Shown in pieces: positions 10,920 through 63,959 of a DNA stretch of 64,000 bases (position 1 is its first letter; each line of letters starts with the position of its first letter). This DNA is from Sulfurospirillum sp. (lineage in GTDB: Bacteria > Campylobacterota > Campylobacteria > Campylobacterales > Arcobacteraceae), in the NCBI GenBank assembly GCA_030491005.1, contig JAKZMJ010000015.1:432019-496018 (forward strand), given 5' to 3'. The notes under the pieces were generated by a model, which did no database searches, was not told where the DNA came from, and saw only the letters and a list, made by a program, of their open reading frames with translations. A program made the translations under genes and the position numbers.

Positions 10920-12310
10920 CTAATATATCAATATTTGGAACATCAAGTGATGTAGGAAAATCAACAATAACATTTGCAATAGCTAAGATTATTCAAGACT
11001 TAGGTTATAGTGTATCTCCTTTTAAAGCTCAAAATGTTTCAAACAATGCTCATGTTTGTGATGATGGAAGTGAAATAGGAATAGCCCAATACTTTCAAGC
11101 ACAAGTTTTAAAAATAAAAACTTCATATCATCTAAATCCTATATTATTAAAATCAGGCAAAAACTCTATGGCTTCTTTAATCCTTGAAGGAAAAGCTGTG
11201 GACAATATTGATGTACGGTCTTATTATAAAAACTTGGATAAGTTAAAACCTATAGTTAATAACGCATACGAATATTTAAATTCAAAATATGATTGCTTAG
11301 TTTGTGAGGGTGCAGGAAGTCCTGTTGAGCTTAATTTAATGACTAAAGATTTGTCAAATATTTATATAGCAAGTAAATATAATACGAAGATAATTTTAGT
11401 TGCCAATATTCAAAAAGGAGGAGTATTCGCCTCTATTTATGGAGTTTATAATCTTTTACCAAAAAAATTGCAAAAAAATATAATAGGTGTGATAATAAAT
11501 AAATTTTGTGGAGATATATCTTTATTTGATGAAGGTGTGCGTATAATAGAAGAAGATTTTAAAATTCCAGTTTTAGGAATATTGCCTTATACTCCTTTTA
11601 ATTTTGGCTTTGAGGATTCTGCTTCTTTGATGAATTATTCTCAAGATATTACTAATGCTATTATTAAAGTTGGAGTTATTGCTTATCCTACTATGAGTAA
11701 TTATAATGACTTTGAGCCTTTAGTTGTAGATACAGAAATTAATCTTGAGTTTATTTGCAGTAATATTTCTTTGGATAAATATGATTTGATAATTCTTCCT
11801 GGTTCAAAATTGGTTATAAAAGATTTACAATGGTTAAAAAAAATAGGTTTATATAAAAGAATAGAAAATTTTACTAAAGATATCTTAGGTATTTGTGGTG
11901 GATATCAGATGTTATTTTCTTCTTTAGAAGATAAATATGCTATTGAAAATGATACATCAGGTATTGAAAATGGTTTTGCTTTTATAGATGATGAAATAGT
12001 GTTTGAAAAAGAGAAAATACTTAGAAAAGAAACTTACGATATATTTTCTTGTAAAATTAAAGCTTTTGAAATACATCATGGAAGAAGTTTAAAATACCCT
12101 TTATTTTATGAGAGTTCAAAAATAAAAGGAACTTTTTTACATGCAATTTTTGATAATGATAATTTAAGGAATAAAATTTTTAAACAAATAAATAAAGATT
12201 ATCAAGGCTTTGATTTTCAAACATTAAAAACAAATATTATTGATGATTTTATAGCTAATTTTAAACATAGATTAGATATAAAAAGAATACTAGATAATAT
12301 AAAGGTTTAA
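10916..12310 (+). CDS. cobQ: Cobyric acid synthase CobQ
   Basis: Amidates adenosylcobyrinic acid a,c-diamide at four side chains using glutamine and ATP, in cobalamin biosynthesis. The 464-aa protein has the N-terminal ATP-binding domain with P-loop GTSSDVGKST (8-17) and NPILLKSGKNSMASL, and a C-terminal glutamine amidotransferase domain with the nucleophile in GICGGYQM (Cys327) and His near 387 in HHGRS. No other cobalamin genes are in the window. It overlaps the upstream gene by four bases and is followed after one base by the Cys-rich gene. Confidence 0.93.
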   Translation: MTNISIFGTSSDVGKSTITFAIAKIIQDLGYSVSPFKAQNVSNNAHVCDDGSEIGIAQYFQAQVLKIKTSYHLNPILLKSGKNSMASLILEGKAVDNIDVRSYYKNLDKLKPIVNNAYEYLNSKYDCLVCEGAGSPVELNLMTKDLSNIYIASKYNTKIILVANIQKGGVFASIYGVYNLLPKKLQKNIIGVIINKFCGDISLFDEGVRIIEEDFKIPVLGILPYTPFNFGFEDSASLMNYSQDITNAIIKVGVIAYPTMSNYNDFEPLVVDTEINLEFICSNISLDKYDLIILPGSKLVIKDLQWLKKIGLYKRIENFTKDILGICGGYQMLFSSLEDKYAIENDTSGIENGFAFIDDEIVFEKEKILRKETYDIFSCKIKAFEIHHGRSLKYPLFYESSKIKGTFLHAIFDNDNLRNKIFKQINKDYQGFDFQTLKTNIIDDFIANFKHRLDIKRILDNIKV

Positions 12311-12311
12311 A

Positions 12312-12737
12312 TTGTCATATTTAACTTGGTTTGAAGCTCATGCAAAAAAACACAAACAAATAGTAAGTAAACTTTCACATCTAAGTGATGATGAGCTTAT
12401 AGCGTATTTTGAATATGATAATATGATAAAAGAAGAAAAAGACTTCTGCCCTTTATATGCCAAAAATAAAAAATGCCATGATATGGAAAATTTGAACTGT
12501 TATTTATGTGCCTGTCCAAATTTTAGATTTAATGATGAAGGTTTTAAACAAATAGAAGATAAGACTTTGTTTTCGTATTGTGGTATTGAGTCAAAAGATG
12601 GTTCTAGGCTTTATGGCGATACTTATATTCATCAAAATTGTAGTAAATGTACAGTGCCTCATTTAGTACCATATATAAAAAAACACTTCAATAGAAACTG
12701 GCTAAAAATTATGGAAAAAGTTAAGGCAATAAAATAG
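12312..12737 (+). CDS. Conserved Cys-rich protein
   Basis: A 141-aa soluble protein starting at TTG 12312, supported by AAAGG six bases upstream and by the frame opening exactly there. It has about nine cysteines, including FCPLYAKNKKC, CYLCACPNF, YCGIE and NCSKCTVPH, a pattern suggesting a bound zinc or iron-sulfur cluster. No named family is recognised. It follows cobQ by one base, and its 3' end overlaps the convergent histidine kinase gene by 17 bases. Confidence 0.65.
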   Translation: MSYLTWFEAHAKKHKQIVSKLSHLSDDELIAYFEYDNMIKEEKDFCPLYAKNKKCHDMENLNCYLCACPNFRFNDEGFKQIEDKTLFSYCGIESKDGSRLYGDTYIHQNCSKCTVPHLVPYIKKHFNRNWLKIMEKVKAIK

Positions 12738-13941
12738 TAAAAGTGTTTAAACCTTTGTGGTGATTATACATTAATTTATAAGAATGTAAATTAACTATTG
12801 TTTGAACTATATATAAACCAAGACCAAATCCCTCACTTCTTTTTTCTTCTTGTGAAAATGCTTCAGTATAATATGATAGCTCATGTGTTAAAGGATTTCC
12901 ATAAGAAGAAATATCAATTTTATTTTTATTTGCTAAAAATATTGCTTGGGAATTATTTGAAAATTTAATTGCATTATCTATTAAATTTTTAAGAACAATT
13001 GAAAACATAGAAATATCAAGAGTAATAGAAAAATCATCTATTTTTGTTTCTATATTAGAACTATTAATAAGCATAATCTCTAATGTTTTTTTATAAACTT
13101 GAAAAAATCTTGTTCTTTCTTTAAAAATTGTAGTATTTTGAGAAGTTAGTTTTTCAACTGTTGCTAACTCTTTTATAATATCATCCATTCTTTTAAAAGC
13201 TCTTTGTAAAATGTCTTTATCTTTTCCATTATCTAATTTTTCAGCTATAAACATAGCTTTTGTAATAGGTGTTTTTAATTCGTGCATCAAATTTCTCATA
13301 AATAAATCTTTTGATTTTCTTTGATTATTTATGTGTAAAACTGCTTCATTAAAATTTTTAGCAATAGTACCTATTTCATCTGTACTGTTTGATGATATTT
13401 TTACATTTAAATCCCCATTTGAAAACTTTTTTATTTGTGTATTTAATTTTTTAAGTGGTTTTAATTTCTTTTTTATTATAAAAAACAAAAAAAACAAAAT
13501 ACCAAGGGGTAAAATTATAAACAATGCTAATATAGCAATATTATATGAATAAGTCTGTAAATCTTTTAACATAATATTATAGCCATTACTTTGAATGTAT
13601 ATATAAAAATTATTTTTGTTTAAAAAAGCTCTATATATTCCAAAATTAGTTCTTCTTAATGTTAAAGCTGAAGCATTATTAATAATATCTAGTTTGATTT
13701 CTTCATCTTGTATAACTTTTACTTCAAATTCTTTTGCAAACATCTTAAATTGTCTTTTGCTTGGATTGTTTTTTAATGTAGACAGTAATTTTTCAGCAAC
13801 AATTTCATTTTTCTTTTGTGCAAAAATATGATACTTCTCTTTATCAAATTTAATAAAAATAATCAAAATTATTATAATAGCAAATAGGGCTAAAATAAAA
13901 ATTGTATTTATAAAAGCTGATATAGAAATATTTTTAATCAT
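12721..13941 (-). CDS. Sensor histidine kinase
   Basis: A 406-aa membrane kinase: membrane segments at about 8-30 and 134-155 flank a roughly 100-aa periplasmic sensor. A HAMP domain follows (about 156-208), then the phosphoacceptor motif HELKTPITK (His220), an N-box DNAIKFSNN near 320 and a G-box GFGLGLYIVQ near 370. It partners the response regulator gene, whose stop it overlaps by four bases. The signal is unknown; the gene order htrA-regulator-kinase suggests envelope stress. The ArsS-like label is only a resemblance. Confidence 0.9.
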   Translation of the reverse strand: MIKNISISAFINTIFILALFAIIIILIIFIKFDKEKYHIFAQKKNEIVAEKLLSTLKNNPSKRQFKMFAKEFEVKVIQDEEIKLDIINNASALTLRRTNFGIYRAFLNKNNFYIYIQSNGYNIMLKDLQTYSYNIAILALFIILPLGILFFLFFIIKKKLKPLKKLNTQIKKFSNGDLNVKISSNSTDEIGTIAKNFNEAVLHINNQRKSKDLFMRNLMHELKTPITKAMFIAEKLDNGKDKDILQRAFKRMDDIIKELATVEKLTSQNTTIFKERTRFFQVYKKTLEIMLINSSNIETKIDDFSITLDISMFSIVLKNLIDNAIKFSNNSQAIFLANKNKIDISSYGNPLTHELSYYTEAFSQEEKRSEGFGLGLYIVQTIVNLHSYKLMYNHHKGLNTFTILLP

Positions 13942-53528: not shown

Positions 53529-55076
53529 CAGCAATTCTAAGTGAAAATTTATATAGCTAAAATCTTCCAAAATAATATCAAAAATCACTACTAAGCAAAT
53601 TCACTAATACCCTTTATTTAAAGGCTTTATCAAGCTTTTTAATACCTAATTTTAGCTATAATATATCCTATAAAAGCCCATAAACAGGAGTGTTTAAACA
53701 AATGAGACAGACAAATATTTTCGATTTTTTAATAGAATCATTTACAGATAATATATCAAATGTAGAAGATACTAGAAAACAAAGAACAAATCTAGTTTAT
53801 AGTTTAAAAGATATTATATTATCAGCATTTAGTGTATTTTATTTTCAAAATAAATCTTGCTTAAGTTTTCAAAGGGATATTGATACAAGAAAAGGTATCA
53901 GTAATGCACAAACTATGTTTGGAATATCTGATATACCAAGTGATAATCATATACGAAACATGTTGGATAAAATAACACCCAATAGTTTTAAAAAAGTATA
54001 TGAAATAATACTTGATAAGTTAAGAGATATAGGAATATTAGATAAATTTTATTTTAAAGATGATTATATGCTTGTAGCATTAGATGGTACTCATTATCAT
54101 TCAAGTAAAAATATATCTTGTAAATGTTGTCAAAGTAAAACTAATAGTGATACAGGTGAAGTACATTACTATCATAGTGTTATAACTCCAACAATAGTAC
54201 ATCCTGATATAAAAAAAGTTATACCATTGATGCAAGAGTTTATATCAAATAATGATGGTAAAGATAAACAAGATTGTGAAGTAAATGCTTCTAAAAGATG
54301 GCTAGATAGTTTTAATAATCCAACTAATAAAAAACTTATTATTTTAGGTGATGATTTATATTCAAGAGAACCTATGATAAAAAAAGTATTAGATAAGAGC
54401 CATTCATATATATTTGTAGCTAAACCAACATCACATAAATACTTATATGAACAAATAGAAATGATAAAAAATCTAAATACTATTGATACAAAAATAATAT
54501 CCAAAATGATTAATGGTAAAAAGCAAATTTTTACATATAACTATATTAATAATTTAGCAATTAAAAATCCACAAGGAGATACACAACATCCACCACAAGA
54601 AGTAAACTGGTGTGAAGTTATAGTTACTAATGCTACGGGTAAGAAACTATATCATAATAGCTTTGTTACTGATATATCTTTGAATGTAAATAATGTTATA
54701 GATATAGCAACAGCAGGACGAAGTAGATGGAAAATCGAAAATGAAAATAACAATACTTTAAAAACTAAAGGCTATCATTTAGACCACAACTTTGGTCATG
54801 GAAAAGAAAATCTATCTAAAACACTTTGTAGCCTTAATATATGAGCTTTCTTATTTCATACAGTACAAGAACTTGATGATGATTTATATATGGAACTTCG
54901 TTATAATATTGGTAACAGAGAAGAGTTCTTTGTAGGTATTAATTTTTTAACAACAATGTTTAATTTTAAAAGCTTTAATAAAATGTTGGAATATATACTT
55001 ATTGCTCGCCAGACCGAAGAGAATGTAGATATGAAAGGATATATTATGTAGTTTTATTTTTGGGTTAGAATTGCTG
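53529..55076 (+). mobile_element. Innermost IS with 9-bp target duplication, ISAs1/IS4-like
   Basis: Inverted ends CAGCAATTCTAA at 53529-53540 and, inverted, at 55065-55076. The flanking direct repeat ACGTTGTAC (53520-53528 and 55077-55085) belongs to IS481 copy B. The CAG-start and 9-bp duplication suit ISAs1-like elements, but the family is not certain. Confidence 0.88.
53702..55051 (+). pseudogene. Transposase of innermost IS, in-frame TGA
   Basis: Start ATG 53702, 12 bases after AGGAG. DDE-type transposase: LVALDGTHYHS (Asp), ILGDDLYSREP (Asp) and RWKIENENNNTLKTKGYHL (Glu), ending HNFGHGKENLS. A TGA at 54842-54844 stops the frame after 381 residues, but it continues open for 68 more codons (FHTVQELDDDLYMELRY and onward) to TAG 55049-55051, as expected for a family C-terminus. 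A nonsense mutation is the simplest reading, so the element may be inactive. Confidence 0.8.
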
Positions 55077-56051
55077 ACGTTGTACCATTCCAAAAACAAT
55101 ATCTTGAAACACATCTGGTAAAATCTTAAATATTTCAGGCTTCGTTTGAAACCAACTATGAACTGCATTAAATGGAGTTCTGACTTTTAATTCTTTTCTT
55201 AAAGAACCATGTCTTCTATTGAAGTTGTAGTATATCAAAAATTTATTTAAATCTTTTTTAACATCATCTATATTTTCATAGTCTTGGGCTTTGATTGTAG
55301 CATTTTTAATAGTTCCGTTTACTCTCTCTACCATTCCATTGGTTTGTGGTGTATATGGAGCTGTTAGTCTATGTTCTATACTATCTTCTTTACATTCTAC
55401 ATCAAACTTGTGATTACCACTTACAATTCCTTTGCCTCTTGCCCATTTATCTGTAAATTCCAATCCATTATCTGTTAAAATATGAGTTAAGTAAAAAGGA
55501 AAAAACTCTTTACAAACTTTTAGAAATTCAACTGCATTATTAGATGATTTGTTTTCATATACTTTGTAATATAGTAGCCTTGTAGCTCTGTCTATTGCTA
55601 CAAATAGATAAAACTTTTGTTTATTAAACTTTGGTAAATATGTTACATCTATATGCAAATATCCAGGTTCGTATTCTTTAAATTTCTTTGCTTTTTCTTT
55701 TTGTTCTTGTGGGACTCTATTTATATCAAATGCTTTTAAAGTTCTATAGATATTACTTCTATTTGCATTTGGGATAATATCAACCATTGTATCTACTAGG
55801 TCATCTAGTTCCATCCAAGTCATTGTCCTAACTACTTTTATTAACTCTTTTTCTAAAGATGTTAAAGTTGTTTTTATATTATGTGGTCTTGAACTTTTAT
55901 CTTCAATAAAATCCCTATCTTTCCATTTAGAGATAGTTTTAATATTTAGATTATAATTATTTGCTAATTCAACATTTGTTAAATTAGATTTCTGTATTAT
56001 TTCTCTTATGTGCTGGTTTGTTCTAGCATTAGAGTGATAGGTTTGTGACAT
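55065..56051 (-). CDS. IS481-family transposase, copy B
   Basis: Identical to the copy A transposase over residues 1-325 with the same DDE residues (Asp135, Asp194, Glu242). The last three residues differ (QQF instead of GET) because the inner IS inserted at the end of the gene and supplied a new stop. Probably still able to make a functional enzyme, though the right inverted repeat is now about 1.5 kb away. Confidence 0.93.
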   Translation of the reverse strand: MSQTYHSNARTNQHIREIIQKSNLTNVELANNYNLNIKTISKWKDRDFIEDKSSRPHNIKTTLTSLEKELIKVVRTMTWMELDDLVDTMVDIIPNANRSNIYRTLKAFDINRVPQEQKEKAKKFKEYEPGYLHIDVTYLPKFNKQKFYLFVAIDRATRLLYYKVYENKSSNNAVEFLKVCKEFFPFYLTHILTDNGLEFTDKWARGKGIVSGNHKFDVECKEDSIEHRLTAPYTPQTNGMVERVNGTIKNATIKAQDYENIDDVKKDLNKFLIYYNFNRRHGSLRKELKVRTPFNAVHSWFQTKPEIFKILPDVFQDIVFGMVQRQQF

Positions 56052-56154
56052 ATTTTAAATCCTTATGTGTTGTAAAGATTTTACACTTATGTTGTTTAAT
56101 CTATCACTTTCTTATTTATGAAACTAGGCAACCATAACGTGGTGAAACTGGACA

Positions 56155-56160
56155 AATAGT
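56155..56160 (+). repeat. Target duplication AATAGT, right copy
   Basis: Direct copy of 53500-53505 at the right boundary of IS481 copy B. Confidence 0.9.
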
Positions 56161-57270
56161 AACTACAACTGGAGAAAACTACTATCTTTATCAACATTAA
56201 AGATACTAAAATTACTTCATAAAGTACAAGATAAAAAAGCTGTAAGAGTTTTAATTATTGATGATACAGTTGAGGGAAAAGTTGGTAAAGATATAGAGGG
56301 TAGTAGTGACTACTTATGGAGTAATAAAGAGAAACGAACTATTAGAGGTATCAATGTTGTATCTTTAAATTATAGTGATGGTTTCTCTAACTTGATGTTA
56401 GACTTTGAAATTGCTACAAATAAATATGCAAGAGTAGCACTAGAAAATTTTACTAATATTGTAGATTATAGAAGTAATGCTCACATAAGAAGACTAGAGA
56501 CACTAAAAGGCAAATCACAAATAGCAATAGCTATGGTTAAAAGAGCTGTAAATAGTGGTATATATGCTGATTATTTACTTGTTGATAGTTGGTATAGTAA
56601 ACCTTCATTCATTAAAGAGATGAATGAACTAGGATTAAAAGTTATTACAAGAGTAGCAAATAACAATAAAATATGGAACTTTTTAGGAGATAGAAAAACA
56701 CTAACAGGTATCTATGATAAATATAAAAAACTAAAAGATATAAAGTCTGGAACCTATGGCAAAAAAGTTAAATATAAATATTTTTCAGTTGTAGTTGAAC
56801 ATAAAAAAGCTGGTAAAATAAAAATAGTATTTTTAAAGACATCAGATAAATTAATACCAATTGTATCAACAGATTTAGATATCTCAGACGAAACAATTAT
56901 TGAGACTTATAGAAGAAGATGGGATATAGAACAAGGTTATAAAGAGCTTCGTGAACACTTTGGATTTAGTACAGAAGAAAATAGAATATATGAAGCTCTT
57001 ATTGCTAGAATTACACTATCATTTTTTACATATAATATAGTTAGTTATATCAATCGTATTAGTCATGAACCTAAAACCATAGGTGGATTGTTTAAAGATT
57101 TAGAATGTGAACTACATACTTTAGCAATTGCTATGCAAACATTTATATTAATACTCAATGAAATAGCACAAATAGAAGAGATTGTAAATAGAAATGATGA
57201 TTTTACTACTATTATTGATATATTAAAGGATGTGACACAGAAGTTACTTGGTTTTAGGTGCGAAAGTTAA
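56161..57270 (+). pseudogene. IS4-like transposase, 3' part
   Basis: Continues the frame broken at 53505, starting NYNWRKLLSLSTLKILKLL. DDE-type core of the IS4 superfamily: VLIIDDTVEGK (Asp), YLLVDSWYSK (Asp) and ETYRRRWDIEQGYKEL (Glu), the last in the IS4 YREK-like region. The stop TAA overlaps the right inverted repeat. Non-functional while split; precise loss of IS481 would restore it. Confidence 0.88.
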
Positions 57271-57348
57271 GGTAAGATATCTATCCTTTTTTAAAATTTA
57301 ATTTATTATAAGCTAAATCACTAAAAATTATAAAAATTATAAAAAATA

Positions 57349-58685
57349 TATACTACCCCAATATGTCAAGACAACTACTTATAAAATCTAATTTTCTTCA
57401 TCACCTGTAACTTTATGCTACAATTTCATCTGATTTACTATAATTTTCATCATTAATTTTAATACTTTCATAGTATACATTCATTTGTTTTTTATAATCT
57501 AAAGTCTCGTGAAATCTTCTATAATTATAAAATTCCATATAATCTGCAAGATCATTTTTTAATGTTGATATTTTAAAATATTCATTGAGATAAATCTTCT
57601 CAACTTTAGCACTACGCCAAAATCTTTCTATACAGATATTGTCAGTTGCTCTACCTTTTCCATCCATTGAAATAATAATACCATTATATTTTAAAGTTTG
57701 AGTATGGATATAGGATGTATATTGGCTACCTTGATCTGTGTTAAATATTTCAGGCTTCCCATATTTAGATAGTGCAACATTAAGTACTCCCATTACTAAA
57801 TCTGTGTCCATTGTGTTGGATATTCTCCAAGATAAAATAGCTTTGGAGTACCAATCAATTATTGCAGCCATATAAACCATCCCGTCTTTGATTTTAATAT
57901 AGGTGATATCGGTACTCCATACTTGATTGGCTCGTACAATATCTAGCCCTCTAATCTTATAAGAGTGTTTAGGATGTTCTTTATTAGCCCAACTTGTATT
58001 TGGTGGTCTAACAGCTAGTACTGCTCTTAAACCTAATTGTTTACGATATTCTCTCACAGTATTAATACATAAAATATGACCTCTTTCAAGTAGCTCTTGA
58101 TGTACTTTCATATAACCATAACAGGGTATATCTTCAAATATATTTACTATGGCATCTTTGATAGATTGTTTTACAAGATTTACCATTGGGACATAAAATA
58201 GATTACTTCTATTGTAATCAAGTAGTTTACATTGTTTTACAACTGATATTATTTTGTGCTTGGATTTATCAATAATTTGTTTTTTACTAGATAAGTCCAA
58301 GCTCTTTAGCTTTCCCTGCATCCAATTATACTCCACTGTCAATTGACCAACTGTTTTTGCATACTCATCATTTTTAGCTTTTAATTGTATGATTTCATCT
58401 TTATATTCTCGTACAACTTTTAATGGTTCCATTGCAATCTCTGCATTTTCAAGAAATATCTTTTTCCAGTTATGCAAGTTTTTAGGTGTTATATTATTTT
58501 TACTTGCTATCGTATTTAATGTATCTTCATTTCTTAAAACTTCAAGAACTACTTTTGTTTTAAATTCAGCACTATATATTGTTCTTTTTCGGCTCATATT
58601 TATACCCTTTATTTTTATTGTTTAATTTTACTCTTTTGAGAATTAAACTTTACAAAAAATTGTTTGTTTTTCTTGGGGTAGTATA
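57349..58685 (-). mobile_element. IS3-family element
   Basis: Inverted ends: TATACTACCCCAA at 57349-57361 and its complement at 58673-58685. If the outer TATA on each side is a 4-bp target duplication, the element is 57353-58681 (1329 bp) with ends CTACCCCAA. It carries one fused transposase gene and lies 76 bases beyond the IS4-like element. Confidence 0.82.
57413..58597 (-). CDS. IS3-family transposase, single fused ORF
   Basis: A 394-aa protein combining an N-terminal helix-turn-helix (RTIYSAEFKTKVVLEVLR) and a leucine-zipper-like linker (about 60-95) with an integrase-type core: VWSTDITYI, FNTDQGSQYTS and ERFWRSAKVEKIYL supply the DDE triad. Most IS3 elements express this from two frames by slippage; here it is one frame, as in some subgroups. 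Appears intact. Confidence 0.93.
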   Translation of the reverse strand: MSRKRTIYSAEFKTKVVLEVLRNEDTLNTIASKNNITPKNLHNWKKIFLENAEIAMEPLKVVREYKDEIIQLKAKNDEYAKTVGQLTVEYNWMQGKLKSLDLSSKKQIIDKSKHKIISVVKQCKLLDYNRSNLFYVPMVNLVKQSIKDAIVNIFEDIPCYGYMKVHQELLERGHILCINTVREYRKQLGLRAVLAVRPPNTSWANKEHPKHSYKIRGLDIVRANQVWSTDITYIKIKDGMVYMAAIIDWYSKAILSWRISNTMDTDLVMGVLNVALSKYGKPEIFNTDQGSQYTSYIHTQTLKYNGIIISMDGKGRATDNICIERFWRSAKVEKIYLNEYFKISTLKNDLADYMEFYNYRRFHETLDYKKQMNVYYESIKINDENYSKSDEIVA

Positions 58686-60097: not shown

Positions 60098-60661
60098 TTA
60101 AATATTTACCATAGCTTTAAAATACGAGCCACTTCGTCCAAGGTTATCTATATTAATATGGAATTTTTTATCAAGTCTTTCATCTTCAATAAATTGATAT
60201 TTAAGCTCTAAAACTAAAGGTACAGTTATACCTGGTAAATCTATTTTACTATAAAAATCACAAAATAAAGCACTTTGAGAAGAGCTAATCATTGGAGGAT
60301 AATCATCTAAAACTTTATGTACATCAATTTCAAATTCCTTAATCTCACTTTGTTTTTTATCTAAAGGCATAGCACACTTTTTTACTAGTTCAACATTGTC
60401 TTTATTTACAAAACATATAGTAGCTTTTTTGCTTTTTAGAATATTTGCTAAGGTATCTTTTTTGCTTCCATCTTCTTTATGTCCAATTGAAACTATTAAT
60501 GTTGCAGGGTTTGATGAAATAGGAATAAAGTATGAGAATGGTGCTGCATTTATAACATCTCCATCTTGGCTTACTATCCATGCTATTGGTCTTGGCACTA
60601 CCGTATCTGACATAAGTTTATATCTATTTAAGTCATTTATATCTTTATAATCTAAAATCAT
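60098..60661 (-). CDS. Flavin reductase-like domain protein
   Basis: A 187-aa FMN-binding split-barrel protein: VVPRPIAWIVSQDGDVINAA and APFSYFIPISSNPATLIVSI are typical for the flavin reductase/DIM6-NTAB group. It may reduce flavin or serve a monooxygenase. AAAGGATTATT precedes ATG 60661. The gene looks intact amid the IS-rich region. Confidence 0.85.
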   Translation of the reverse strand: MILDYKDINDLNRYKLMSDTVVPRPIAWIVSQDGDVINAAPFSYFIPISSNPATLIVSIGHKEDGSKKDTLANILKSKKATICFVNKDNVELVKKCAMPLDKKQSEIKEFEIDVHKVLDDYPPMISSSQSALFCDFYSKIDLPGITVPLVLELKYQFIEDERLDKKFHINIDNLGRSGSYFKAMVNI

Positions 60662-60922: not shown

Positions 60923-61981
60923 CTTAATGAAAAATTCAGGGGTCTGATTTATCACTTTTTCTTATAACTAACAAGATAATCATCAAGCATTTTTAACTTC
61001 AAACTTTTAGTAACACCATTATGTATTTTTATAAGTTTTTTCATAGGTGAAAACACTCCACCATCTATAGAATTTGTAGTATTATGTATAGTAATATTTC
61101 TATGATTTTTATAAGTAAAAAGGTAAGGTAGATTAGTTATTAAACTTCTGTATGCAGACCTAACTCTTGGATGAGTAAAATTCAATTTACCTGTAGTTGG
61201 AGATATTGACTTTTCATCTAAAAAACCTTTATATATTTTGTACCATTCATCTAACTTTTTGCTAAAATTCTTTTGATTTGTACTTGTTAAGTTATACATT
61301 ATTTTTTGTAAATCTTTACTAGCTTGTAGTCTAGGTTTTCTAGTTAAATATTTATTGATTGTTTTTCTTTGATGAAAGTGGCACATCTGAGTTGGATAGT
61401 CTTTAAAAGCTTTATATAAGCCTCTCTTACCATCAATTATAATTGCTTGCCTTTGTATCCTAATTCTACTAGCAAGTCTAAATGCTGCTTGTAATCAAAT
61501 ACTAATTCGCTATCAATATGTTTCCAAGTTAGTATCTCTTTTGATATAGTATCTTTGAAAACTAAAGTACCTAACTTATCTTTTCGTTTGCCATAAAAAG
61601 TGGCATCACAAACTATAACAACTTCTCTTGGATTATGGATCTTTTCATCTGGCTCATATTCTAATATTTGCTTTCTTATCCATGGTAAACTTCTATTATA
61701 ATCTTCGGCTAAATTAGATAATATTTGTCTTCTGTAAATATACTTTTTAAAGATTATTTCTTGTAGATTTTTTGGTCTTCTTTTAGAACTAAATTTACGA
61801 CCACATTCATTACATTTATATCTCTGTATACCATTTCTCGTACCTATCTTTTTAGTATAGCTTTTTAGACAATATGGACAAGTTTTATTGTTTTTTTACA
61901 GCCATTTGTAAACAATCCTTTTTTAACTCCTATAGTATCGTAGTTTACTTGAGTTTTTAGACCCCTGAATTTTTCATTAAG
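60923..61981 (-). mobile_element. IS256-variant element, inactive
   Basis: Exact 23-bp inverted ends at 60923-60945 and 61959-61981 (outer part CTTAATGAAAAATTCAGG). Length 1059 bp. The flanking 8 bases differ on the two sides, so one flank has been lost or rearranged. Confidence 0.85.
60952..61905 (-). pseudogene. Zn-type IS256-variant transposase, two frameshifts
   Basis: ATG 61903-61905 (AAGG upstream) is followed by an A7 run; with six As the frame gives MAVKNNKTCPYCLKSY and a second pair CNECGRKF, an N-terminal zinc ribbon. VVIVCDATFYGKRKDKLG supplies the first catalytic Asp. Near 61480 a second shift is needed to reach RQAIIIDGKRGLYKAF, MCHFHQRKTINKYLTRKPRL and the C-terminal TTNSIDGGVFSPMKKLIKIH, which reads to the stop near 60952. 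Both lesions make it non-functional. Confidence 0.8.
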
Positions 61982-62177
61982 TCGCCTAAGATGTAAATAC
62001 CTAAAATAAAATATTTTTATCATTAATCTTATACATATAAAAAAGCTAAATGAAGCATTTAAAAAAATAAGTTTAAGTATGATATCAAGTCTAATTTTAG
62101 TATTTATCATAGTTTATAATTTATAGTTTTGATATTACATTTCTTGGTATTAAAATTACACTAATATAATCGATATT
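61982..62177. other. Intergenic, no clear gene
   Basis: AT-rich. A minus-strand frame from ATG 62108-62110 encodes about 43 hydrophobic residues before running into the IS end at 61981; it has no ribosome binding site and may be a truncated gene start. Nothing else recognised. Confidence 0.3.
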
Positions 62178-62906
62178 TTATTTGTAAGGTTTAAATTCGT
62201 CACCACTAAAAGGTTCAAAATCTTTAGTCCATTTTGTAGAAAATTTACATAACAGCTTTAATTGCAATGGAGCATTATGATTTACTTTTTTAATAGTTAT
62301 ACTTACACTTTTATCTCCATTAAGCTCCATTAGTTTATAAAAATCTTTAACAAAAAATGATGGACAATATCCTAGTAATTCAACTGGGTCATCTTGTGTT
62401 CTTAATGCTAGTGCAAATGGGTCTACTTCATTTTGAACATCCTTTAAAATTAATAATTTATCATTATCATTTAACTTAGATAATCTTTTAACATAATGTT
62501 CCGCAATATGACTGATTCCATGAGAAAAGAATAATACTTCATACTGATCATTTTCATTCTTTTCAGGAATAGGGAATAATTGTAGTTCATCAGTTGCTCT
62601 AATCCCTCGACTTCTTGACAATTCAATTAGCTCATTTTCATTTTTTTCAATATCTAACCATTTAATATAATCTTCATATTCTGGTCTTGATTTAGCCAAT
62701 AATTTATTTTTAAATATTGGAAATAGATTTTTTGAACTATATGTATTTTTTAATTCATTCATTTGACCAAAAGGTTGAAAATTTTTAGTTTTTGCTCCAT
62801 TAGTATAATTAAAATAATACATATCATTTTTATATCCTAAACATCCAATTGGAACCCATTGTCTATTTTCAGGGTTCCTCCATGCTAAAATTAATTTATT
62901 AATCAT
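62178..62906 (-). CDS. HIRAN-domain protein paired with HipA-like kinase
   Basis: A 242-aa protein with two parts. Residues 1-85 (LAWRNPENRQWVPIGCLGY, LFPIFKNKLLAKSRPEYEDY) look like the small N-terminal subdomain of HipA-type kinases. Residues about 120-205 match a HIRAN domain, a DNA-end or damaged-DNA binding fold: VQNEVDPFALALRT (157-170) and LLGYCPSFFVKDF (178-190). Its ATG overlaps the kinase stop by four bases (ATGA, 62903-62906), so the two are made together. Function is not established; a regulatory or defence role is inferred. Confidence 0.8.
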   Translation of the reverse strand: MINKLILAWRNPENRQWVPIGCLGYKNDMYYFNYTNGAKTKNFQPFGQMNELKNTYSSKNLFPIFKNKLLAKSRPEYEDYIKWLDIEKNENELIELSRSRGIRATDELQLFPIPEKNENDQYEVLFFSHGISHIAEHYVKRLSKLNDNDKLLILKDVQNEVDPFALALRTQDDPVELLGYCPSFFVKDFYKLMELNGDKSVSITIKKVNHNAPLQLKLLCKFSTKWTKDFEPFSGDEFKPYK

Positions 62907-63850
62907 TTTGATAATGCCTCTTTTACTTCCAATAATCTTTCTTTATTCTCTTCTAAAATCTTTAATGCAAATTCTATGGACACATTACTTATTAAGTGTT
63001 TTGGAATTTTATTAAAAATTTCTCTTACTTTATTTATATCTAAATTCTCTAATTTATCTAGCCAATATATTGCTGTTTTTTTATTAGAATCTGCACAAAG
63101 TTTAAACGCTTCTATTGTTTTTAAGTTTTTATCTTTATTGTCGAAAAAAGGTGTCTTGGCTCTTGTAACAAAATGTCTAACCATTCGACCTTTATCTTTT
63201 GTTTTTAATCTTTCAGTTTTTTCGTCATTACTTTCTCTACACCCAAGACCAGATGCATGGTCATAAGTAGGAGATAAAAATATTTCTTTTGGTGAAGCAA
63301 TTATCCAACTCCAATTTTCATGATGTCTATCTTGATTCGATATTAGACAATCCAGCATAATATACCCAATAAAGACATCTATAGGATTGTGTAATTTATC
63401 ATTTTTATAATCAATAGGTAGTTTCAAAAATTCTGCTTTCATAATTGCCAATACAAGTTTTAATTTGTATTCTCTTATTTTATAACTTTTATTATCATCA
63501 TCTTTTTTAATTGGATATGTAATTTTTTTATCTAGTAATTTATACGTTTTAGCTAAAAGTTCATTTCCATGTATAAGTCTATGGTCTTTTGGAACAAAAC
63601 TTGTTGTAATCGTACCTTCTTTTTCATTCCATATTGCAAATTCATAGTTTGCATGAGGAATATTTAATAGATTACATATTTCAGCAACTACTACTTCAAC
63701 CCAGTTCTCTCCAGTATTTGGTCTTCCAATTTTAAATAACTTTTTCATATTATCACTGTCATCATGAAACCAAAATTTTCTTTTTGTTCCTAATGGCTCC
63801 ATTTCTTCATATTTAGATAATGGGACTTTAGTAATATTTAACTTTTTCAT
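62903..63850 (-). CDS. HipA-like Ser/Thr kinase
   Basis: A 315-aa kinase of the HipA/CtkA-like group, without the usual N-terminal subdomain, which appears to sit in the next protein. The catalytic loop SNQDRHHENW gives Asp174 and Asn179; the metal-binding motif is PTYDHASGLG (Asp197). A basic C-terminus follows. HipA enzymes phosphorylate tRNA synthetases or other targets and cause growth arrest; the target here is unknown. No HipB-type helix-turn-helix gene is visible upstream. The ATG is preceded by only a weak ribosome binding site and overlaps a 27-aa upstream frame. Confidence 0.85.
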   Translation of the reverse strand: MKKLNITKVPLSKYEEMEPLGTKRKFWFHDDSDNMKKLFKIGRPNTGENWVEVVVAEICNLLNIPHANYEFAIWNEKEGTITTSFVPKDHRLIHGNELLAKTYKLLDKKITYPIKKDDDNKSYKIREYKLKLVLAIMKAEFLKLPIDYKNDKLHNPIDVFIGYIMLDCLISNQDRHHENWSWIIASPKEIFLSPTYDHASGLGCRESNDEKTERLKTKDKGRMVRHFVTRAKTPFFDNKDKNLKTIEAFKLCADSNKKTAIYWLDKLENLDINKVREIFNKIPKHLISNVSIEFALKILEENKERLLEVKEALSK

Positions 63851-63911
63851 TTCGCATTCTATCTAAAAGTGATTTAAACTCATCTTCATTAAAATACTTC
63901 AATAATGTCAT
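63828..63911 (-). CDS. 27-aa upstream ORF overlapping the kinase start
   Basis: ATG 63909-63911 encodes MTLLKYFNEDEFKSLLDRMR and seven more residues, ending 20 bases inside the kinase gene. Its translation could couple to the kinase, whose own ribosome binding site is poor. It is too short for an antitoxin with a known fold; low confidence. Confidence 0.3.
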   Translation of the reverse strand: MTLLKYFNEDEFKSLLDRMRNEKVKYY

Positions 63912-63939
63912 ATGTTTTTCTATTATTTATCTTAAGTTC

Positions 63940-63959
63940 ATGACATTAATTCTTGTCAT
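63940..63959. promoter_or_regulatory. Operator-like palindrome upstream of the kinase operon
   Basis: ATGACA (63940-63945) and TGTCAT (63954-63959) are exact inverted half-sites separated by eight bases with a central AATT, about 90 bases before the kinase start. A third TGTCAT lies at 63906-63911, over the small upstream frame. The arrangement is typical of an autoregulatory or repressor site. Confidence 0.5.

Follow-up and report, generated by a model that had tools for sequence, protein, structure and literature searches.

Two intact minus-strand genes lie at the end of the window, the 64,000-nucleotide stretch of Sulfurospirillum sp. DNA analysed here; the first encodes a HipA-family kinase of 315 amino acids, and the second encodes a 242-amino-acid partner in which a HipS-like domain is predicted to be joined to a HIRAN domain. 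By its architecture, the pair belongs to the hipIN organisation, which was defined together with the fused hipL by Gerdes, Baerentsen and Brodersen in 2021 (PMC8262856), and it is not new in kind; the two products are therefore called HipI and HipN. The same source proposes that the kinase is switched on for abortive infection when the HIRAN domain detects phage DNA ends or intermediates. In line with that proposal, the pair probably, if not securely, constitutes a hipIN-type kinase toxin–antitoxin module of defence that is gated by DNA ends and mediates phage-triggered growth arrest. What is added here beyond the 2021 proposal is the tight pairing of the two genes, their patchy occurrence, and their placement in a prophage hotspot, in PM2-like prophages and among restriction–modification (RM) genes.

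The kinase carries the motifs SNQDRHHENW and DHAS, and its predicted structure (predicted local distance difference test, pLDDT, 87.6; predicted template modelling score, pTM, 0.88) adopts the core fold of CtkA, HipA and HipT. Because the alignment of this model to E. coli HipA is confined to residues 122–437, the kinase is considered to lack the N-terminal HipA subdomain, as the first-pass annotation of this DNA had described. The Pfam HipA_C score lies just under the cut-off (27.5 and 30.5 bits, respectively), and the NCBIfam scan of the kinase gave a sub-threshold YjjJ match only. Residue conservation was counted over 119 distinct kinases, the window copy included; the catalytic-loop and DHAS residues given in Table 1 are invariant, and K40 is retained in 117. 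Residues 18–27 (EPLGTKRKFW) form, judging from their position, a putative Gly-rich loop, in which G21, K23 and K25 are each found in 117 of the 119 kinases and position 22 is threonine or serine in 113. The DHAS motif is presumably the metal-binding Asp motif, with the role that it has in the HipA family.

The predicted structure of HipN (pLDDT 87.7, pTM 0.84) matches, in a fold search, the HipS/HipA N-terminus in its first half and the HIRAN domain of HLTF in its second. The HIRAN family PF08797 is also recognised on residues 134–226 (E = 5.9e-7; 29.7 bits against a Pfam cut-off of 24.7), in agreement with the HIRAN domain that had been noticed in the second half of the protein. The missing HipA subdomain had been assigned to the first 85 residues of HipN; its identity is borne out, and its length is revised to approximately 113 residues. 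Sequence searches of the Protein Data Bank (PDB) and the NCBIfam scan gave no match for HipN, and families missing from the fold-search listing were not taken as absent. Both proteins, encoded by adjacent genes, match the two components of a PADLOC candidate system, the kinase PDC-M03A with 363 bits and HipN PDC-M03B with 284 bits; PDC-M03 is a candidate label only. Taken together, the predicted folds and the co-occurrence described below support the reading of a split HipA combined with a HIRAN domain.

A profile-led scan of genome contigs yielded 457 confirmed kinase relatives, of which the best 80 were kept; with 57 loci from viral contigs, these make up a set of 137. A HipN homologue is the next gene downstream, on the same strand, in all 137 loci, and the junctions are tight: the two genes overlap in 114 loci, share exactly four nucleotides in 71, and are separated by more than 30 nt in only three. 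The four-base overlap noted earlier in the window is the sequence ATGA, common to the stop side of the kinase frame and the start side of the partner frame, and it likely couples the translation of the two genes. Because the 137 loci had been found by kinase motifs, 397 whole genomes of the phylum were searched separately with each protein. HipN was found in six genomes and strong kinase matches (E ≤ 1.2e-26) in six, and these are the identical genomes, distributed over 6 of 69 genera. The first-pass annotation had expected related HIRAN/HipA-like pairs in other genomes, an expectation that the 137 paired loci, and the earlier definition of hipIN, bear out. CtkA of Helicobacter pylori (3akj, 3akk, 3akl), entitled a proinflammatory kinase in the PDB, shares the core fold. 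Nine more genomes of the 397 have weak kinase matches only (E 1.5e-8 to 4.5e-5), and the sequence covered around these matches, up to about 1.5 kb on either side, contains no HipN.

The nearest named homologues are found in Arcobacter and Halarcobacter metagenome-assembled genomes. Comparison with the two closest named relatives gave nonsynonymous and synonymous rates (dN/dS) of 0.076/0.501 for the kinase and 0.070/0.437 for HipN against L003, and of 0.114/0.606 and 0.054/0.428 against L004; the ratio of about 0.13–0.19 indicates that both genes are under similar purifying selection. A split or shortened kinase frame accompanies an intact HipN in four of the 137 loci (L017, L056, L072 and L133) and in one locus among the 397 genomes (L144), some of these interruptions possibly being assembly errors, and none of the 137 loci has a HipN shorter than 238 amino acids. 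On plasmid L148, HipN stands alone, with no detectable kinase frame. Broken kinases beside intact HipN, and a HipN that is never shortened, fit a toxin (HipI) and an antitoxin (HipN). Orphan HipN genes were not countable in viral contigs because a HipN-led scan gave 22 pattern matches, none of which was confirmed by tblastn.

The genomic settings of the pair point towards phage defence. The gpA–gpQ interval of P2-like prophages is a hotspot of tested defence systems (PMC9122126, PMC9519451), and the words HipA and HIRAN are absent from the main texts of both of these sources. In 33 of the 57 viral loci, the P2 portal gene lies convergent to the pair, 38–171 nt downstream, and in 29 of these 33 gpA is located no more than 5 kb upstream as well. 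Klebsiella phage 4LV2017 carries a reverse transcriptase gene in this slot. The pair of prophage contig L090 matches 51 of 5426 complete E. coli genomes, 21 at an identity of at least 95% and 30 at 60–80%. Two of the 21 were examined, and both carry the pair between the replication endonuclease gene gpA and the portal gene gpQ of a P2-like prophage; with this lineage, the 2021 proposal can be put to the test in common laboratory strains and phage panels. In the two examined of the 30 (L154, 7749–11635; L155, 5749–9635), a second E. coli hipIN lineage, approximately 67% identical, adjoins the cdiA locus of contact-dependent inhibition, close to a KAP NTPase gene.

Outside P2-like prophages, HipN matches 4 of 50,697 phage records, all from Vibrio; the two examined belong to the Vinavirales, and in both of them a PM2-like capsid gene is present and the pair adjoins the integrase gene. 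In these tailless PM2-like Vibrio prophages, the hipIN cargo occupies positions 11590–13304 (L146) and 10953–12646 (L147). HipN also matches 8 of 72,556 plasmids, and five of the seven examined (L149 and L171–L174) have a profile-recognised kinase frame just upstream of HipN, while in plasmid L150 an IS110 transposase gene is situated between the two. On the Rhodococcus plasmid L173 (1631–6257), genes for a DEAD/DEAH helicase, a restriction subunit S, the kinase, HipN and a DNA methyltransferase follow one another on one strand, the kinase of this type I restriction operon being confirmed by profile, and the chromosomal loci L046 and L074 are likewise enclosed by type I RM genes. A HIRAN–HipA pair adjoining diDNase genes has also been described, with a predicted function in phage defence (PMC11706625). 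The idea of a DNA-triggered arrest is plausible, and the location of the pair in the P2 gpA–gpQ hotspot, in PM2-like prophages and in type I RM operons adds support to it; locational and structural support for defence is stronger than in the first-pass annotation. More tentatively, hipIN in general could be a DNA-end-gated kinase immune system, with a HipA enzyme divided in two and its inhibitory subdomain placed on the HIRAN sensor, that P2-like and PM2-like prophages carry to shut down cells in which a competing phage exposes open DNA ends or intermediates of replication.

Mobile settings are also what would be expected of a plain toxin–antitoxin stabiliser, in which HipN neutralises HipI, the HIRAN domain serves DNA association or autoregulation only, and the pair retains prophages, plasmids and islands with no sensing. 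The presence of the pair on all three kinds of element, the broken kinases beside intact HipN, and the patchy occurrence in 6 of 397 genomes all suit such a stabiliser. However, the pair occupies a specific slot of anti-phage cargo and is also found inside RM operons, a simple antitoxin needs no domain of the DNA-end type, and the sole operator candidate is not conserved, which together leave this explanation unlikely, though not negligible.

In the mechanism proposed for the DNA-end-gated module, HipI would be the toxin, kept inactive by the HipS-like half of HipN; as between HipS and HipT, docking of HipN on its kinase would take place in trans. The binding of DNA ends or single-stranded DNA (ssDNA) by the HIRAN domain would loosen the HipN clamp during phage infection. 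The freed kinase would then phosphorylate an essential protein, perhaps a tRNA synthetase by analogy with HipA and HipT, so that growth of the infected cells halts and propagation of the phage is prevented. If such a gate operates, a domain familiar from fork remodelling in eukaryotes would tie a bacterial growth-arrest kinase directly to DNA ends, and the gate would explain why, in a split HipA, the inhibitory part has stayed joined to HIRAN.

Alternatively, the HIRAN domain could be a delivery module: it would place HipI at DNA ends or forks, there to phosphorylate a host or phage replication or repair protein, and DNA binding would target the kinase rather than release it. The HIRAN domain of HLTF engages DNA ends during fork remodelling (PMC8262856), and the fused HipL, with the order kinase–HipS–HIRAN, would hold kinase and HIRAN together. 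Nevertheless, HipS has been shown to inhibit HipT directly, via its Gly-rich loop or P-loop (PMC10627512, PMC9325769), and the HipS-like half of HipN accordingly argues for inhibition, which makes delivery a distinctly unlikely role. A host DNA-damage checkpoint triggered by chromosomal damage rather than by phage has a precedent in the ssDNA-activated, damage-responsive kinase that controls immune operons (CapK/CapS, PMC13373217), but it is improbable, given that CapK is described there as an anti-sigma-factor-type kinase and not a Hip kinase, and that the pair is rare, scattered and often located in prophage contigs, unlike a housekeeping checkpoint.

Comparison with known systems places the pair closest to hipIN itself (PMC8262856), with which it shares the gene order from the kinase to the HipS–HIRAN protein, the core kinase, the putative antitoxin role and the DNA-end-sensing model. 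There is no difference in kind; the abstract and sections 5 and 15 of that source make no mention of a placement in the prophage hotspot, in PM2-like prophages or among RM genes. In HipL, the three domains and their order are identical, but they are encoded in one gene, whereas the pair consists of two. HipBST, with structures from E. coli and Legionella, is likewise a split HipA in which the kinase core and an antitoxin resembling N-subdomain 1 are separate chains; it differs in that its HipS has no HIRAN domain, its genes are arranged in the order of its name, and it includes the helix-turn-helix (HTH) protein HipB. No gene for an HTH HipB was seen beside the pair within the window, the end of which is also the end of the contig, and the upstream side of the kinase runs past this end into sequence outside the data. 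HipAD (DS-6) is a two-protein HipA-family kinase system with experimentally supported anti-phage activity that requires the catalytic residue, and its partner carries DUF3037/DUF1829 in place of HipS–HIRAN (PMC13092281). According to the same source, a HipA kinase has been validated in other work; Payne et al. 2024 and Brenes and Laub 2025 are among the studies cited there.

Several observations weigh against a DNA-end-gated defence module. Among the papers listed by the literature search, no experimental study of hipIN was found, whether of toxicity, kinase activity, binding to DNA, complex formation or an effect on phage, yet a prior test of this very pair is possible. Most bacterial HIRAN domains are reported to lack Phe142 of HLTF (PMC8262856). 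In HipN, Phe65 is invariant in 113 of 113 sequences, and it is at most a candidate counterpart of the Trp65 plug of E. coli HipS. With respect to location, 24 of the 57 viral loci have no P2 portal gene within 400 nt, the 57 are not independent (38 distinct kinases), and the two examined of the 30 E. coli genomes at 60–80% identity both have the pair adjoining cdiA with insertion sequence (IS) remnants and not in the P2 hotspot. All 137 loci, moreover, were selected through the kinase. Type I RM matches of any kind occur in the flanks of only 7 of the 80 genome loci. PADLOC models matched 217 families among near neighbours and 109 among far ones, with 150 genes each, a count of redundant models rather than of genes that is too coarse to be used as support. 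The first-pass annotation had regarded the edge of an IS cluster as a typical place for defence loci; IS genes do adjoin the pair in the window, but the defence neighbourhood is weak, as 8 of 10 genes sampled farther out are of housekeeping or chemotaxis type and 2 have no family.

Upstream of the kinase, operator-like sites and a 27-codon leader frame had been proposed, and neither proposal withstood comparison with relatives. The palindrome ATGACA-N8-TGTCAT is present as described, but in none of the 137 relatives does it occur in the sequence covered upstream of the kinase (up to 300 nt). The surrounding DNA has a GC content of 26% and is rich in inverted repeats (59 in a 1.9-kb stretch, with arms of at least 6 nt at most 30 nt apart, some imperfect), and the exact pattern is found at two places in the 2.69-Mb genome, as compared with one for the reversed control. 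In favour of the palindrome, its single match in the window is exact, where 0.25 would be expected even with one mismatch allowed and 23 of 100 shuffles have one; in favour of operator-like sites, ATGACATTA is found at four places in the window, where 1.66 would be expected, and nine shuffles reach this count. Overall, the palindrome is probably not an operator, and that reading was set aside as unsupported. In L003 and L004, the 27-codon frame (63828–63911) is interrupted by TAA, and L005 lacks a start codon at the corresponding position; the frame was rejected as a leader peptide, and it also overlaps a promoter-like box.

That box conforms to TANAAT-N5-ATG at the kinase start in the window and in its three closest named relatives (L003, L004 and L005). 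It belongs to a close group, since only L003, L004, L005 and L052 among the 137 relatives have TANAAT 4–6 nt before the kinase ATG; the background rate is 25 of 2191 window ATGs. No Shine-Dalgarno-like word precedes the kinase start. From the four related sequences, TANAAT is predicted to act as a −10 box, so that the kinase mRNA would be leaderless and HipN would be translated from it via the ATGA coupling. A scan with the TTGACA/TATAAT promoter pattern revealed no excess in the region (15 matches, 15.6 expected).

Table 1. Features of the hipIN-type locus, in window coordinates.
Feature	Position	Strand	Remarks
Kinase gene, hipI-type	62903..63850	-	315 aa; core HipA kinase lacking N-subdomain 1; PDC-M03A match
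Partner gene, hipN-type	62178..62906	-	242 aa; HipS-like and HIRAN; PDC-M03B match
ATGA start/stop overlap	62903..62906	-	4-nt overlap
HipS-like (HipA N-subdomain-1-like) domain	62568..62903	-	HipN residues 2–113; model match
HIRAN domain	62199..62558	-	HipN residues 117–236; model match
Putative Gly-rich loop	63770..63799	-	Kinase residues 18–27; conservation counts
Catalytic loop NQDRHHENW	63311..63337	-	Kinase residues 172–180; D174, R175, H176, N179 in 119/119
DHAS motif	63251..63262	-	Kinase residues 197–200; D197, H198 in 119/119
TAGAAT, −10-like box	63856..63861	-	5 nt before kinase ATG; predicted leaderless promoter
ATGACATTAATTCTTGTCAT palindrome	63940..63959		Probably not an operator; upstream of 0/137 relatives

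No conserved third gene is claimed for the system, the largest recurring neighbour family being present at 11 of the 80 loci with no fixed position. In the window, IS transposase genes of the rve and DDE types are located at 55065–58597, followed by a flavin reductase gene at 60098–60661. Short minus-strand frames occupy 60952–62000 beside the pair, and the one scanned (60952–61386) has no significant Pfam family. Elsewhere in the window, 59 frames were scanned with PADLOC models, which yielded a match to PDC-S05 (E = 2.3e-115) and weaker matches to pVip, RT-Protease_XI and mad2.
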